Source of the DNA: Armatimonadia bacterium
GTDB lineage: Bacteria; Armatimonadota; Zipacnadia; Zipacnadales; JABUFB01
Direction of reading: 5' to 3'
Assembly: GCA_039679385.1 (NCBI GenBank)
Contig: JBDKVB010000178.1
Span: forward strand, 1 to 63,502
Length of the DNA: 63,502 nt
Of the stretch, positions 394 through 32,249 are shown piece by piece. Made by a program: the position numbers and the translations under genes. Below the pieces are notes generated by a model. It saw nothing but the letters and a program-made list of their open reading frames with translations. It was not told the origin of the DNA and ran no database searches. Position 1 is the first letter of the stretch, and each line of letters begins with the position of its first letter.

Positions 394-2865
394 TTGGCGA
401 AGGCACGTGCGGCGGCTCCACCGAAGGACGATAGTCTCAAACGCGACCTCATGGCCATCGGGCTCGCAACGCTGGGCACGTTGATCCTGGTCAGTCTTCT
501 GTACCAGGGCGACGGCATCGGCGTGGTCCCGAGCGGCCTTGCAGCGGGCTTACGCCTGGCCTTTGGGCTGGGAAGCTACGCGGTACCCCTGGTTCTCTTC
601 CTCCTGGCTGCACTCTATGGTTTCGACCGCCGCCCATCACCATCGACGAAGGTGCTGGTGGGTGCGAGCCTGCTGGCTGTGGCTGCGCTGGTGCTGCTGC
701 AACTCCGGCTGACCGATGACGCGGCGACGGTGTTCGCCAGTCAAGAGAACCTTCTGTCCGGCGGCGGTTACCTGGGCGCTGGTCTGGCCTGGGTGTGCCT
801 GAGCCTGCTGGGGCAGGTCGGCACACTGATTTTGACGTGTTCCATGGCCTGCGTCGGGCTGATCCTGCTGACGCAATCGACGCTGCGGGACCTGTGCCGA
901 GGAGTTGGCGGACGGCTTGCCCGAGGCGCCGACCTTGCCGGTGAAGGGGCTCGGACGCTGGCACAACACGCCACACTCGGGCCACGACCGTACCTGGAAC
1001 GCGAAGAGGAAGAGCCACCCAAGCCGAAGCGGCGCAGGAAGGGCTCGAAGGTGGACATCGACGAGCCGCCTGGTCCGGTTCTGGCGCCTCGGGCGCCAGA
1101 GGCCGCCTCCGCGCCTGTCGTGCTTGCGGCTCGGCAACCGGAGCGCCAGCGCGAGGAGAAGCCCATCGAGGCCGAGGCTTCCGCGGCCTCGGGCGCGGTC
1201 GCCAGGGATGAGCCGAAAGGCCGGACTTGCTCCAAAGCTGCCAAGGGCATCGCCCATCAGCCGAAGCTGCTGCGCAACTCCGACCTGTTTGTGCTTCCCG
1301 CCACCACTCTACTGACGACCTTCGATGATGACGTCGAGAGCGCTGCCGCGAGGCAGGAGGCTGCCGAGCAGATCATCAAGCTGGAGGATACGCTGGCCAG
1401 CTTCGGCATCACCGCCAAGGTGGTGCACTTCGAGCCCGGTCCCGTGCTCACCCGCTATGAAGTGGAGCCGGAGCGCGGAATCCGGGTCAATCAGGTCGTG
1501 CGGCTCGCGGATGACCTGGCCATGGCGCTGGCAGCCGTGGATGTCCGCGTAGAAGCGCCGATCCCGGGCAAGTCGGCCATTGGTATCGAGGTGCCGAACG
1601 CGAATCGCGTGACCGTCGGGCTGCGAGCTCTGCTGGAGACCGAGAGCTTCCAGAGCCACTCGTCGAGGCTCGCCGTCGCGCTGGGTCGTGACATCGCCGG
1701 GCAGCCCGTGATTGCCGATATCAGCACCATGCCTCACTTGCTGATCGCCGGCGCAACAGGCTCGGGCAAGAGCGTGTGCCTGCACGGGATCATCATGAGC
1801 CTGCTGCTGCGGTCCACGCCCGACGAGGTGCGGTTCATCATGATCGACCCCAAGCGGGTCGAACTGGCCGTCTATGACGGCATCCCGCACCTGATGGCGC
1901 CGGTCGTCTACAGCGTCAAGCATGCCGCCGACGTGCTGCGCAAGGCCATCCGGGAGATGGAGAAGCGCTACGACAAGTTCGCGCTGAAGGGCGTCGTGAA
2001 TCTGGCCGAGTACAACGCGCTCGCCGGGATGCCGAAGGAGCACGCGACCGACGAGTTCGAGCCTCTGCCTCATGTGGTCATCATCATCGACGAGTTGGCC
2101 GACCTGATGATGCAGGGGCGGGCGGAGTTCGAGTTCTCGATCTGTCGCATCGCCCAGCTCGCGCGCGCGACGGGGATTCACCTGATCCTGGCCACGCAGC
2201 GCCCGTCGGTCAAGGTCGTGACGGGCAACATCAAGGCCAACATCCCGACCCGTATTGCGCTGGCGGTGGCGTCGCAGGTGGACTCCCGCACGATCCTCGA
2301 CGGCCAGGGCGCCGAGCGTCTCATCGGTCGCGGCGACATGCTCTACTCGCCGCTGGACGCCAGCAAGCCCCGGCGGATTCAGGGAGCCTTCGTGCCCCGG
2401 GGTGACATCGAGCGGGTGGTCGAGCACCTGCGCCACCAGGGCGAGCCGCAGTTCGAGATCATCCCCGAGGCGCAGGAGGAAGAAGGAGACTTCGCGGACG
2501 ACATGGACACCAGCGACGAGCTCTATGCGGGCGCCGTGCAGTATGTAGTGCAAGAGGGCGAAGCTTCCGTGTCGATGATCCAGCGGCGGTTCAAGGTGGG
2601 CTACGCTCGCGCCGGACGACTGATCGATGTGATGGAGCAGCGGGGTGTCGTAGGACCTCACGAGGGCTCCAAGCCCCGGCAGGTACTCCTTGGTCCGCAC
2701 GGTCTGGACGGGGTGCTGCAGGGACGTCGTCCCCTGGGGCCGACGGAGGACGACCTGGCGCAGGCTGAGGAGGAAGACAGCGAGGGCGAGATCACGGCAG
2801 AGGACGTCCTGATGTCGGCGCCTGCAGGGGAGGCCGACGAAGGGCTGGAGGAAGAGGAGAGTTAG
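394..2865 (+). CDS. ftsK: DNA translocase FtsK/SpoIIIE
   Basis: This is a membrane-anchored, ATP-driven DNA pump that clears chromosome termini through the closing division septum. The 823-aa product has a hydrophobic N-terminal region of about four membrane spans (residues 20-165), then a charged Pro/Ala-rich linker. The motor follows, with Walker A GATGSGKS at about 453 and Walker B IIIDELADLMM at about 563. A C-terminal winged-helix gamma domain (about 705-770, ending near EGSKPRQVL) would read KOPS-like orienting sites. The frame stays open upstream to 136. I chose TTG at 394 because GGAGG (380-384) sits 9 nt before it and because a promoter-like -10 box lies inside the longer frame. GTG 385 and ATG 358 are alternatives with worse spacing. 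Identity is certain; only the start is open. Confidence 0.96.
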   Translation: MAKARAAAPPKDDSLKRDLMAIGLATLGTLILVSLLYQGDGIGVVPSGLAAGLRLAFGLGSYAVPLVLFLLAALYGFDRRPSPSTKVLVGASLLAVAALVLLQLRLTDDAATVFASQENLLSGGGYLGAGLAWVCLSLLGQVGTLILTCSMACVGLILLTQSTLRDLCRGVGGRLARGADLAGEGARTLAQHATLGPRPYLEREEEEPPKPKRRRKGSKVDIDEPPGPVLAPRAPEAASAPVVLAARQPERQREEKPIEAEASAASGAVARDEPKGRTCSKAAKGIAHQPKLLRNSDLFVLPATTLLTTFDDDVESAAARQEAAEQIIKLEDTLASFGITAKVVHFEPGPVLTRYEVEPERGIRVNQVVRLADDLAMALAAVDVRVEAPIPGKSAIGIEVPNANRVTVGLRALLETESFQSHSSRLAVALGRDIAGQPVIADISTMPHLLIAGATGSGKSVCLHGIIMSLLLRSTPDEVRFIMIDPKRVELAVYDGIPHLMAPVVYSVKHAADVLRKAIREMEKRYDKFALKGVVNLAEYNALAGMPKEHATDEFEPLPHVVIIIDELADLMMQGRAEFEFSICRIAQLARATGIHLILATQRPSVKVVTGNIKANIPTRIALAVASQVDSRTILDGQGAERLIGRGDMLYSPLDASKPRRIQGAFVPRGDIERVVEHLRHQGEPQFEIIPEAQEEEGDFADDMDTSDELYAGAVQYVVQEGEASVSMIQRRFKVGYARAGRLIDVMEQRGVVGPHEGSKPRQVLLGPHGLDGVLQGRRPLGPTEDDLAQAEEEDSEGEITAEDVLMSAPAGEADEGLEEEES

Positions 2866-2900
2866 GACCGCCGACCGGCGAACACGGATATGGTTATGCA

Positions 2901-2930
2901 GGGGCCGACCCTTACCCAGGGGTCGGCCCC
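2901..2930 (+). terminator. hairpin downstream of ftsK
   Basis: GGGGCCGACCC (2901-2911) pairs perfectly with GGGTCGGCCCC (2920-2930) across an 8-nt loop. There is no T tract, so it is terminator-like only by position, 35 nt after the ftsK stop. Confidence 0.6.
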
Positions 2931-3021
2931 GATTGCGTCTGGAGGAAGGCGGGGTGGTACCCACGCGACTTGGTGCACGTCCATGTGGGACCCAGCAGTG
3001 CTGCGAGGGCCAGGTTCGCGT

Positions 3022-3092
3022 ACCTCACCCCCGTCTCGCTGCCGCTCGACTCCCCCTCTCCACGCGTGGAGTGGGGGCTCGGGGGGTGAGGT
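3022..3092. repeat. large palindromic intergenic repeat
   Basis: An outer stem ACCTCACCCCC (3022-3032) pairs with GGGGGTGAGGT (3082-3092). Inside it, CTCCAC (3058-3063) pairs with GTGGAG (3066-3071), flanked by C5 and G5 runs. A degenerate relative sits at 32488-32520, which suggests a dispersed repeat family. Confidence 0.7.
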
Positions 3093-29912: not shown

Positions 29913-31010
29913 ATGGATTACCGTGAACGATGGCAGCAGCGACGTCGCAAGGAGGCCCGCCGGAACTACACGACGGGTGCTGCGATCCTGGCTGTTCTTG
30001 TGGCGGTCATCGGGTTGGTGCGAATGCACCGCGACGGGCGGCCGCTGTGGTGCTCGCAGTTTCAGCAGGCCTGCCCAATCTACTTCACGCCCTCCGGTAA
30101 CCTGTTGTACTGCGCGCTCCCCTCTGGTGAGGCCGTGGCCTTGCGCCTCGACAACGGGAGACGGGCCTGGAAGAAGGTCCTGCTTCAGCCCGACAGTTTC
30201 GGCGCTCCTCCGGCGGTCAGTGCGCCGCTGGTGGTTCTGGGCGATGACGGCGGGCGAGTCACAGCCTACGACGCAGGGTCTGCGACTCCGGTGTGGCAGT
30301 TCTGCGCACAGGGACCGGTGCGGTCGCCACTCCTGATAAGCGACGGCGTGGTGTTCTTCGGCTCCGACGGCGGCCAGGTTCATGCCCTGGAACTGGCGAG
30401 TGGCCGCGAGCTGTGGCGCTATGAAGTGGGTGCCCCGGTGAACTGCGGCGCGGTCCTGTGCAACGGGGTGCTGGTCGTCGGCGCCATGGACGGCAGCATC
30501 CTGGGCATCGACGCCGGAACCGGGACACGTCGCTGGGACTTCCAGGTGGGAGCTTCGGTGATGGCGACCCCGGCGCTGATCAGCGGCCAGGTGATCGTGG
30601 GAGCCGACAATGGCACAGTCTACCAACTGGACCCGATGACGGGGCGGAGTGTCGCCAAGGCCGACGTGCCGGAGTCGGGGCTGATTCGGTCCGCGCCCGT
30701 GGTCGATGCTTCGCGGGTGTATGTGGCGACGACGGATGGCTGGCTGATGGCGATGGAGCGGACCGCCCTGGGTAGAGTGTGGTCGCGCAAGCTCGGACGC
30801 GAGATCTCCGCCGGCCCGGCGATCGACGACACGTATCTGTACTGCGCGACCGGCGAGGCGGAGGTGCTGGCCATCGACAAGAAGACCGGGCGGATCCGCA
30901 AGCGATGGGACTGCCCGGCCCGGGTGGAAGGGTCACTGGTGGCTCTGCAGGGGATGATCGTTGCTTCTACGGCCGACGGCCAACTGATCGCCTTCCGAAC
31001 TTTGCCCTAA
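29913..31010 (+). CDS. PQQ-like beta-propeller repeat protein, membrane anchored
   Basis: A 365-aa protein with a basic N-terminus, one membrane anchor (about 20-38, TGAAILAVLVAVIGLV) and then about seven PQQ-type blades. Each blade carries the pattern V..G..DG.v.ALd..tG...W (for example VVFFGSDGGQVHALELASGRELW and VLVVGAMDGSILGIDAGTGTRRW). The family includes BamB-like assembly factors and serine/threonine kinase sensor domains. No kinase or dehydrogenase domain is attached, so it likely serves as an extracytoplasmic scaffold. ATG 29913 lacks a clear ribosome site but sits just after a good -10 box. Confidence 0.85.
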   Translation: MDYRERWQQRRRKEARRNYTTGAAILAVLVAVIGLVRMHRDGRPLWCSQFQQACPIYFTPSGNLLYCALPSGEAVALRLDNGRRAWKKVLLQPDSFGAPPAVSAPLVVLGDDGGRVTAYDAGSATPVWQFCAQGPVRSPLLISDGVVFFGSDGGQVHALELASGRELWRYEVGAPVNCGAVLCNGVLVVGAMDGSILGIDAGTGTRRWDFQVGASVMATPALISGQVIVGADNGTVYQLDPMTGRSVAKADVPESGLIRSAPVVDASRVYVATTDGWLMAMERTALGRVWSRKLGREISAGPAIDDTYLYCATGEAEVLAIDKKTGRIRKRWDCPARVEGSLVALQGMIVASTADGQLIAFRTLP

Positions 31011-31087
31011 AGAAACGCCGTGCCCTCTCAGCGCCCCAGAAGTCGCCGGGTTATCTCCGCGGCGACTCCTTTCTTCCCCGGCAGCCA

Positions 31088-31285
31088 AACCTGCAGGCAA
31101 AAAAAGACCCGCCGTAATCATGAGGTGCTGTTCCCGACCACCTAATGAGTTCTGGCGGGTGCCTCCCCCAGGGTTGATGCCTATAAACCCCCCTGGCGAA
31201 AGCGCAGGTTCACCTTGATCGAGCCGTCGCTTAGGGTTGACGCACTGTCGCCAGGAAGGTTCAGTTTTTTTGCCTGAGGCAGGTT
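31088..31285. repeat. 198-bp element bounded by an inverted repeat; candidate structured RNA
   Basis: The left arm AACCTGCAGGCAAAAAAA (31088-31105) is complementary to the right arm TTTTTTTGCCTG plus CAGGTT (31265-31285), with a 3-nt AGG insertion. Inside lie a long hairpin (31107-31160), a second stem CCTGGCGA (31192-31199) with TCGCCAGG (31248-31255), and a direct repeat AGGGTTGAYGC at 31170-31180 and 31233-31243. There is no open frame with a ribosome site. It fills the gap between two convergent genes. It could be a non-coding RNA on the minus strand ending at the T7 run, or a small mobile palindromic element. No flanking duplication is seen. Confidence 0.55.
31099..31160 (-). terminator. 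rho-independent terminator, minus strand
   Basis: On the minus strand ACCCGCC/GGCGGGT (31107-31113 with 31154-31160) encloses TCAT/ATGA and AGGTG/CACCT pairs, giving a stem of 16 base pairs with one mismatch between the inner two blocks. It is followed by C and seven T residues (31105-31099). It would end transcription from the PfkB gene or from an RNA encoded in the element. Confidence 0.8.
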
Positions 31286-31307
31286 CTTTTGTAGGAGAGC
31301 CCTCAGG

Positions 31308-32249
31308 TCACTGCTGCGCCATGAAGCGGTCGACGTCTTGTCGGAAGGAGGCTCCTTCCATCGGCCCCTTGCGGGTAGCGCCGAGACCACCGCAGGCATT
31401 GGCAAGTCGGCCGACCTTCTCGAGCGGGAGCCCCTCCAGAAGACCCACGACGCAGCCGGCATCAAAGCAGTCCCCGGCACCGGTGGGATCCACTGCATCG
31501 ACCTTGAAGGCCGCTACCTCGACCATTTCGCCCGATGCATAGAGGGTGCAGCCCGCTGAGCCCCGCTTGAGTGCAACCACCTCGGCACCTCGATCCAGGA
31601 GCGCCTTGCAGGCCGCGTCGGCGCCGTCGACGCCGGTGAGGATCTCGGCTTCGCTGGAACTGGGCAGCACGAGGTTCGCGCAGTCCATGACGGGCTTGCA
31701 GACCTTGCGCAGCGCTTCCTCGCCACCCAGAAGCTCGGGACGCAGGTTCGGATCGAAGGAGACCTTCCCGCCGGCGGCCTTGGTCAGCTCGCAGGCCAGG
31801 TAGCATTTCCGCCGCATCTCTTCGCCCGCCGACAGGGTGGAGCCGCAGACATGCAGCCACTTGACGCCCTGGAACTGGTCGGCAGTCGGGTCGGGCAGTT
31901 GGCCCGCGGCACTGTTGGCGATGTGGAAGATGAACATGCGCTCGCCGTCGGCGAAGTAGGTGACGAAGGCGCAGCCGGTCGCCAGACCCTCAACACGCAC
32001 GACGGCAGAGGCGTCGACACCGTCGGCCTGAAAGCGGTTGACGAGGCAATCGCCGAAGCCGTCCTTGCCGCAGGCGCCGAGGAAGCCTACGGTGTGCCCG
32101 AGCCGGGCTGCCTGGTCGGCGAAGATGGCAGGAGCGCCGCTGGGGAAGGGGCCGACGAAGTCCCCGGCCTGATCCAGAGGTACGTCGACCTCCTTGCGCA
32201 TGATCTCGACAATCAACTCACCAATCGACAGGATTTCGTTGGCTCGCAT
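31308..32249 (-). CDS. PfkB-family carbohydrate kinase
   Basis: A 313-aa ribokinase-like enzyme that transfers phosphate from ATP to a sugar or nucleoside. Visible are SIGELIVEIMRK, the Gly-Ala region FPSGAPAIFADQAARLG, and the C-terminal PfkB signature DAVDPTGAGDCFDAG with the catalytic Asp and anion hole. 2-keto-3-deoxygluconate or fructose kinases look similar; I cannot choose between them. ATG 32249 has GGAGG 5 nt upstream. Transcription likely starts at a TATAAT-type -10 box about 110 nt upstream and ends at the terminator at 31099-31160. Confidence 0.9.
   Translation of the reverse strand: MRANEILSIGELIVEIMRKEVDVPLDQAGDFVGPFPSGAPAIFADQAARLGHTVGFLGACGKDGFGDCLVNRFQADGVDASAVVRVEGLATGCAFVTYFADGERMFIFHIANSAAGQLPDPTADQFQGVKWLHVCGSTLSAGEEMRRKCYLACELTKAAGGKVSFDPNLRPELLGGEEALRKVCKPVMDCANLVLPSSSEAEILTGVDGADAACKALLDRGAEVVALKRGSAGCTLYASGEMVEVAAFKVDAVDPTGAGDCFDAGCVVGLLEGLPLEKVGRLANACGGLGATRKGPMEGASFRQDVDRFMAQQ

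Follow-up and report, generated by a model that had tools for sequence, protein, structure and literature searches.

What is the function of a 198-bp intergenic segment, seemingly closed by an inverted repeat, that sits between genes for a PfkB-type kinase and a BamB-like protein whose ends face each other in an armatimonadotal genome? The original prediction, made from the letters of the window (the whole stretch of DNA analysed, 63,502 nucleotides), considered a stable small RNA, either 6S-like or unassigned, or else a non-autonomous mobile palindrome. Judging from its sequence and conservation, the "inverted-repeat element" is the gene for a small RNA on the minus strand. The predicted arms, hairpins and minus-strand terminator are all present where they had been placed, with seven T residues (T7) at 31105-31099 closing the minus strand. 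The closing 18-bp inverted repeat exists in the window as well, but is not conserved: relatives keep the T-run and the A-rich stretch, without pairing arms. The closed shape of the repeat comes about because the A-tract upstream of the promoter faces the T-tract of the terminator, so that the functional element is not the 198-bp unit but about 31099-31263 of the minus strand, plus the upstream A-tract (Table 1), for which we infer a role as an UP element. The inverted arms at the ends are what a mobile palindrome would be expected to display; yet there is a single copy in the 5.6-Mb genome (one match), the arms are not conserved, and both covariation and a promoter are present, which makes this reading vanishingly improbable.

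Table 1. Features of the small RNA locus and its neighbours (positions in the window)
Feature	Position	Strand	Evidence or remark
A-rich, UP-element-like tract preceding the -35 box; right-hand arm of the predicted repeat	31264..31290	-	A-rich, not identical in relatives
Apparent ECF-sigma-type promoter: TGAACC, 15 nt, CGTCAA	31237..31263	-	nearly all relatives keep the boxes and their spacing
Small RNA gene, about 131 nt; start inferred, +/- about 3 nt	31099..31229	-	covariance models R1/R2, covariation
5' antisense region; reverse complement AAAGCGCAGGTTCACCTTGATCGAGC	31199..31224	-	prepilin codon match
Core of the antisense region, TTCACCTTGATCGAGC, corresponding to Phe-Thr-Leu-Ile-Glu codons of prepilins	31209-31224	-	
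Hairpin 1 (GCGCUUUCGCCAGGG...CCCUGG..GAGGC)	31161..31203	-	helices 2 and 3, folding
Terminator hairpin, extended in this family	31106..31160	-	helices 4 and 5, folding
Conserved apical motif GGUCGGGAACAGC; antisense of the prepilin Leu-Phe-Pro codons CTG-TTC-CCG	31127..31139	-	
Terminator U-run; left-hand A7 of the predicted repeat	31099..31105	-	
Upstream neighbour, same strand: PfkB carbohydrate kinase	31308..32249	-	Pfam PF00294, 4.4e-45; context only
Convergent neighbour: BamB-like PQQ beta-propeller protein	29913..31010	+	Pfam PF13360, 1.1e-40; context only

The conservation in relatives on which the original prediction had made its case depend was found. BLASTN of the region gave matches in 7 of 60 relatives, with the minus strand as the conserved one; a first covariance model (R1, built from eight sequences) recovered the RNA in 30 of the 46 genomes of the class Ca. 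Zipacnadia/WS1 (Armatimonadota), and a second (R2, built from 30 sequences) in 35 of 46, along with 18 genomes of other Armatimonadota classes at lower scores; the sequences compared come from draft and metagenome assemblies. A genome-wide pattern scan yielded matches outside the phylum mostly in Oxalobacteraceae and Firmicutes; among the scan loci tested with the covariance model, only those from Armatimonadota scored well, bar one low-scoring locus, in sequence that seems to be coding and that, from reading it without a search, we take to be aroQ. Neither the window nor the relatives had a match at the gathering threshold of Rfam 15, and the 6S model (RF00013) found nothing in the window at the gathering threshold or at E<=5. 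The genuine 6S RNA of this genome (on C91) and its SRP RNA lie on other contigs. Known Rfam families, including 6S and SRP, were rejected on these grounds, and with them the 6S-like option, whereas the guess of an unassigned small RNA proved right: the family is absent from Rfam and conserved with covariation.

Nearly all relatives share one layout, in which an A-rich stretch is followed by GGAAC-N16-YGTT, the 5' segment CAGCUCRAUYAGRGUGAA of the RNA, hairpin 1, a terminator hairpin and a U-run, with an intrinsic terminator (stem and U-run) in most of them. Folding, which had been suggested as a check, gave for both strands of 31080-31290 structures better than all 200 dinucleotide shuffles (z -4.1 and -4.2), and the stems indeed display compensatory two-sided changes (75 vs 25 in shuffles). 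In the consensus structure of 22 pairs, 88.6% of pairs are standard compared with 33-47% for slid partners; helices 2 and 3, which form hairpin 1, are paired in 80-93% of cells and include 6 pairs with two-sided changes. The GGUCGGGAACAGC loop on the terminator hairpin is conserved in families f1 and f4, its core being invariant in the eight closest sequences, whereas f6 has a plain terminator. Most relatives also share a GCC right after the terminator U-run (TTTTTTTGCC; window 31096-31098, minus strand).

The sequence upstream of the RNA points to the circumstances in which it might be expressed. Nearly all sequences of the relatives carry a promoter of the form GGAAC-N16-YGTTWW at near-constant spacing, and near-perfect GGAACTTTT...GTCTAA boxes occur in the other classes; the -35 element of Escherichia coli RpoE is GGAACTT (PMC8103513). 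The sRNA promoter is apparently of the ECF-sigma (RpoE-like) form, and sigma-dependent expression is predicted. The genome itself encodes 15 ECF sigma factors above the family cut-off, and the gene for one of them, on contig C130, is preceded by TGGAACC-N15-CGTTTGTA. Orthologues of this gene with a similar site occur in 14 of 21 other genomes of the class. The promoter-like site and an upstream start codon overlap, and the site may be part of coding sequence; within it, in orthologues that are GC-rich genes, Phe is encoded by TTT in 10 of 11 cases and Val mostly by GTA or GTT, a choice of codons that argues for a promoter but is suggestive only, because gene starts often favour A/T. The sigma gene is followed by one for a zf-HC2 anti-sigma-like protein (L167:1367-2094 and 2160-3080), a pair that is a candidate autoregulated stress sigma system. 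The link of the sRNA to one particular sigma gene is ambiguous, and the strict promoter pattern, which across five genomes is no commoner than its reversed control, cannot define a regulon.

The antisense character of the RNA's 5' end, like the promoter, had escaped the original prediction. When the conserved 5' segment is complemented, it reads TTC-ACY-CTR-ATY-GAG-CTG, or Phe-Thr-Leu-Ile-Glu-Leu; this end of the RNA is thus the antisense of GFTLIEL codons, which in type IV prepilins specify the cleavage/methylation motif. Read as its reverse complement, the 5' end spells out five or more of ten prepilin-motif residues, in the same place, for 44 of the 51 sRNAs; of 1020 shuffled sequences, 23 reach five and none exceeds it. 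Among these 44, a set chosen by the amino-acid match, the mean entropy at codon positions 1, 2 and 3 is 0.50, 0.34 and 1.18, variation thus falling mainly on third bases, and the synonymous share in the prepilin frame is 0.66, against a mean of 0.20 and a maximum of 0.44 when columns are permuted. The other antisense frames have synonymous shares of 4-19%; one sense-strand frame reaches 48%, the same variable columns falling on its wobble base. Tandem RNAs in G036 are antisense to KGFTLIELL and RGFTLIELW, for which they use different Thr, Leu, Ile, Glu and Leu codons, and two loci of another class, L141 and L143, differ synonymously (ACA/ACG, TTC/TTT).

Could the likeness to prepilin codons be fortuitous, or left over from a piece of a prepilin gene that was inverted, within what is really a protein-binding or housekeeping structured RNA? 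The hairpins and terminator are conserved, and the RNA is kept without the antisense 5' end in genus g5 of family f3 and in G037, the match being weak in G041 and G022. However, change that is mainly synonymous makes sense only under a pairing or a coding constraint, and the opposite strand is not a gene: a peptide encoded there was rejected, given the stops in the reading frames of the G002 and G003 paralogues and the lack of a conserved start or length. Together with the position of the antisense segment, which in every class is the RNA 5' end, and the absence of an Rfam match, this renders the structured-RNA explanation quite improbable.

Several variants of the RNA deserve mention in their own right. 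In the f3/g5 members (L028, L029, L155, L157, L158), the scaffold and promoter are kept and the prepilin-antisense 5' end is lost, perhaps through retargeting. Second copies lie in tandem downstream of the first in G036 (L025:1315-1423) and G034 (L244:1222-1302); the sequence upstream of these copies looks sigma70-like, not ECF-like, and they differ from the first copy in their antisense codons. Family f1 also has a diverged second paralogue (L153:1280-1473 and L154:1342-1535, in G002 and G003), in which the antisense frame reads GFTLIE and then a stop, and a 5' mini-hairpin (CACUC/GAGUG) is fully paired.

Sites that such an RNA might recognise are abundant. The 13-mer ACYYTRATYGAGC, used in a seed-target search, has several matches in most genomes; its reversed control came out near zero, but contains a stop codon and so is biased and was not relied upon. 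The fully degenerate FTLIEL pattern occurs 56, 74, 50, 56 and 22 times in five genomes and never in the controls; the sampled sites are in prepilin ORFs, mostly 4-8 codons after the nearest start, and two sampled ORFs were confirmed to encode N_methyl (PF07963) and DUF1559 domains. Each of four genomes (G000, which is the genome of the window, G002, G035 and G026) has at least 50 FTLIEL prepilin genes, several of them in tandem arrays, such as the eight copies spaced about 0.9 kb apart at G000:C48:30403-36632.

In the genome of the window, the sRNA is complementary at 23 of 26 nt to the starts of two prepilin genes on contig C18, the maximum among some 4000 random windows being 19; a third prepilin gene has 18 contiguous complementary nucleotides and two more have 16. 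Among prepilin genes fetched as exact variants, five in G035 and four in G026 match their own sRNA over 21-22 contiguous nucleotides. Exact variants of the sRNAs find their match among prepilins of their own genome in 34 cases, vs 18.1 expected after swapping (P 0.002, in a permutation that ignores phylogeny). By duplex energy, the first 35 nt of the RNA favour the sampled prepilin starts (6 targets) over those of 143 other genes (P 0.004), whereas the energies of full-length duplexes, for the same number of targets, do not separate the two groups. Mean duplex energies over all prepilins reveal no tuning of each sRNA to its own genome, so that only subsets may be targets; the sRNA probably serves a subset of prepilins. 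This is a stand-alone RNA with a 5' region complementary to the start regions of genes encoded elsewhere, as in trans-acting sRNAs, and no prepilin gene lies on the opposite strand of its locus, as a cis-antisense RNA of the PilR type would have.

The terminator loop might provide a further point of contact. Its core, CGGGAACAG, is the complement of CTG-TTC-CCG, encoding Leu-Phe-Pro, and a Leu-Phe-Pro site is located 19 codons after the Phe of FTLIEL in 56 prepilin genes, CTGTTCCCG being its commonest version (18 of 56). The loops of relatives vary at the third base of the Pro codon (G, T, A) and once at that of the Phe codon. A second prepilin contact via LFP seems likely but unproven; the match is short, and a structural cause is possible.

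Taken together, the conserved RNA gene, the form of its promoter, its structure and a complementarity that changes mainly at synonymous positions, all of which can be read directly from the genomes, make it quite probable that the RNA, made from an ECF-sigma promoter, acts in trans to repress prepilin mRNAs when the envelope is under stress. Presumably, envelope stress would free the sigma factor, whereupon the sRNA would be transcribed up to its intrinsic terminator; its 5' end would then anneal to some of the prepilin (DUF1559/N_methyl) mRNAs near the beginning of their coding sequence, perhaps helped by contact of the terminator loop with the Leu-Phe-Pro codons farther on. Such pairing would block initiation or trigger decay, lowering prepilin translation or stability, and fewer prepilins would flow into the inner membrane. 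One RNA could shut down many prepilin genes in this manner because its 5' end mirrors a signature common to dozens of them. Complementarity by itself does not tell repression from activation. Because the sites fall within the coding sequence, close to its start, where known sRNA pairing usually represses, as with RybB on ompD (PMC4911921), another outcome appears unlikely, whether activation or stabilisation of the prepilin mRNAs by the RNA or titration of the RNA by these mRNAs acting as sponges. An activating sigmaE-dependent sRNA, FoxJ, is known (PMC11005410), and RybB can bind coding sequence, that of ompD (PMC4911921). Extending the preferred, repressive reading, one may conceive of an sRNA family that mirrors, in antisense, two stretches of codons diagnostic of its target proteins (GFTLIEL and, by the terminator loop, LFP), follows the synonymous drift of its targets, and reaches different prepilin subsets through duplicated copies with different codon versions, with one self-controlling envelope-stress sigma factor over all; this fuller scenario we hold tentatively, with slightly more doubt than belief.

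The proposed arrangement has functional counterparts in other bacteria. The sigmaE-dependent RybB, MicA and MicL of Enterobacteria (PMC8103513) likewise have an RpoE-type GGAAC promoter, a stand-alone gene and an intrinsic terminator, and repress a whole class of envelope proteins, as proposed here for prepilins; in RybB, the pairing region is also at the RNA 5' end. However, they belong to a different phylum, there is no sequence relation (no Rfam match), and the targets here are prepilins rather than porins or Lpp, with a pairing region that copies, in antisense, the codons of a protein-family motif and varies at synonymous positions. FoxI and FoxJ of Fusobacterium (PMC11005410) represent another sigmaE-dependent sRNA arm far from Proteobacteria that targets abundant envelope proteins, but act through C-rich seeds against the porin FomA and are unrelated to the prepilin sRNA in sequence or target type. 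RybB and MicA (PMC8103513) or FoxI (PMC11005410) give a sigma factor, itself capable only of activation, the means to repress as well. The antisense RNA PilR of Synechocystis has been reported to lower a prepilin, PilA11 (PMC5924778), but it is a cis-encoded transcript facing a single gene (positions 677-886 of pilA11), whereas the RNA described here has its gene away from the presumed targets and matches many genes at their N-terminal motif. The logic resembles that of RybB, MicA and FoxI, but the targeting principle would be new; in a limited literature search, neither the prepilin target nor the codon-antisense principle was found.

Prepilin-type genes are numerous in Armatimonadota, with 79 pseudopilins in Fimbriimonas (PMC4072686), and the same limited search found no account of how the dozens of such genes in this phylum are regulated. 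If the interpretation offered here is correct, the sRNA would be a built-in brake for the prepilin family of Armatimonadota, and the envelope-stress logic of a sigma factor plus a repressor RNA would extend to a third, distant phylum, apparently with a separate origin. An antisense copy of the codons of a signature peptide would, moreover, be a new way to control a large gene family, and the synonymous-site test, being general, could find other motif-directed RNAs.
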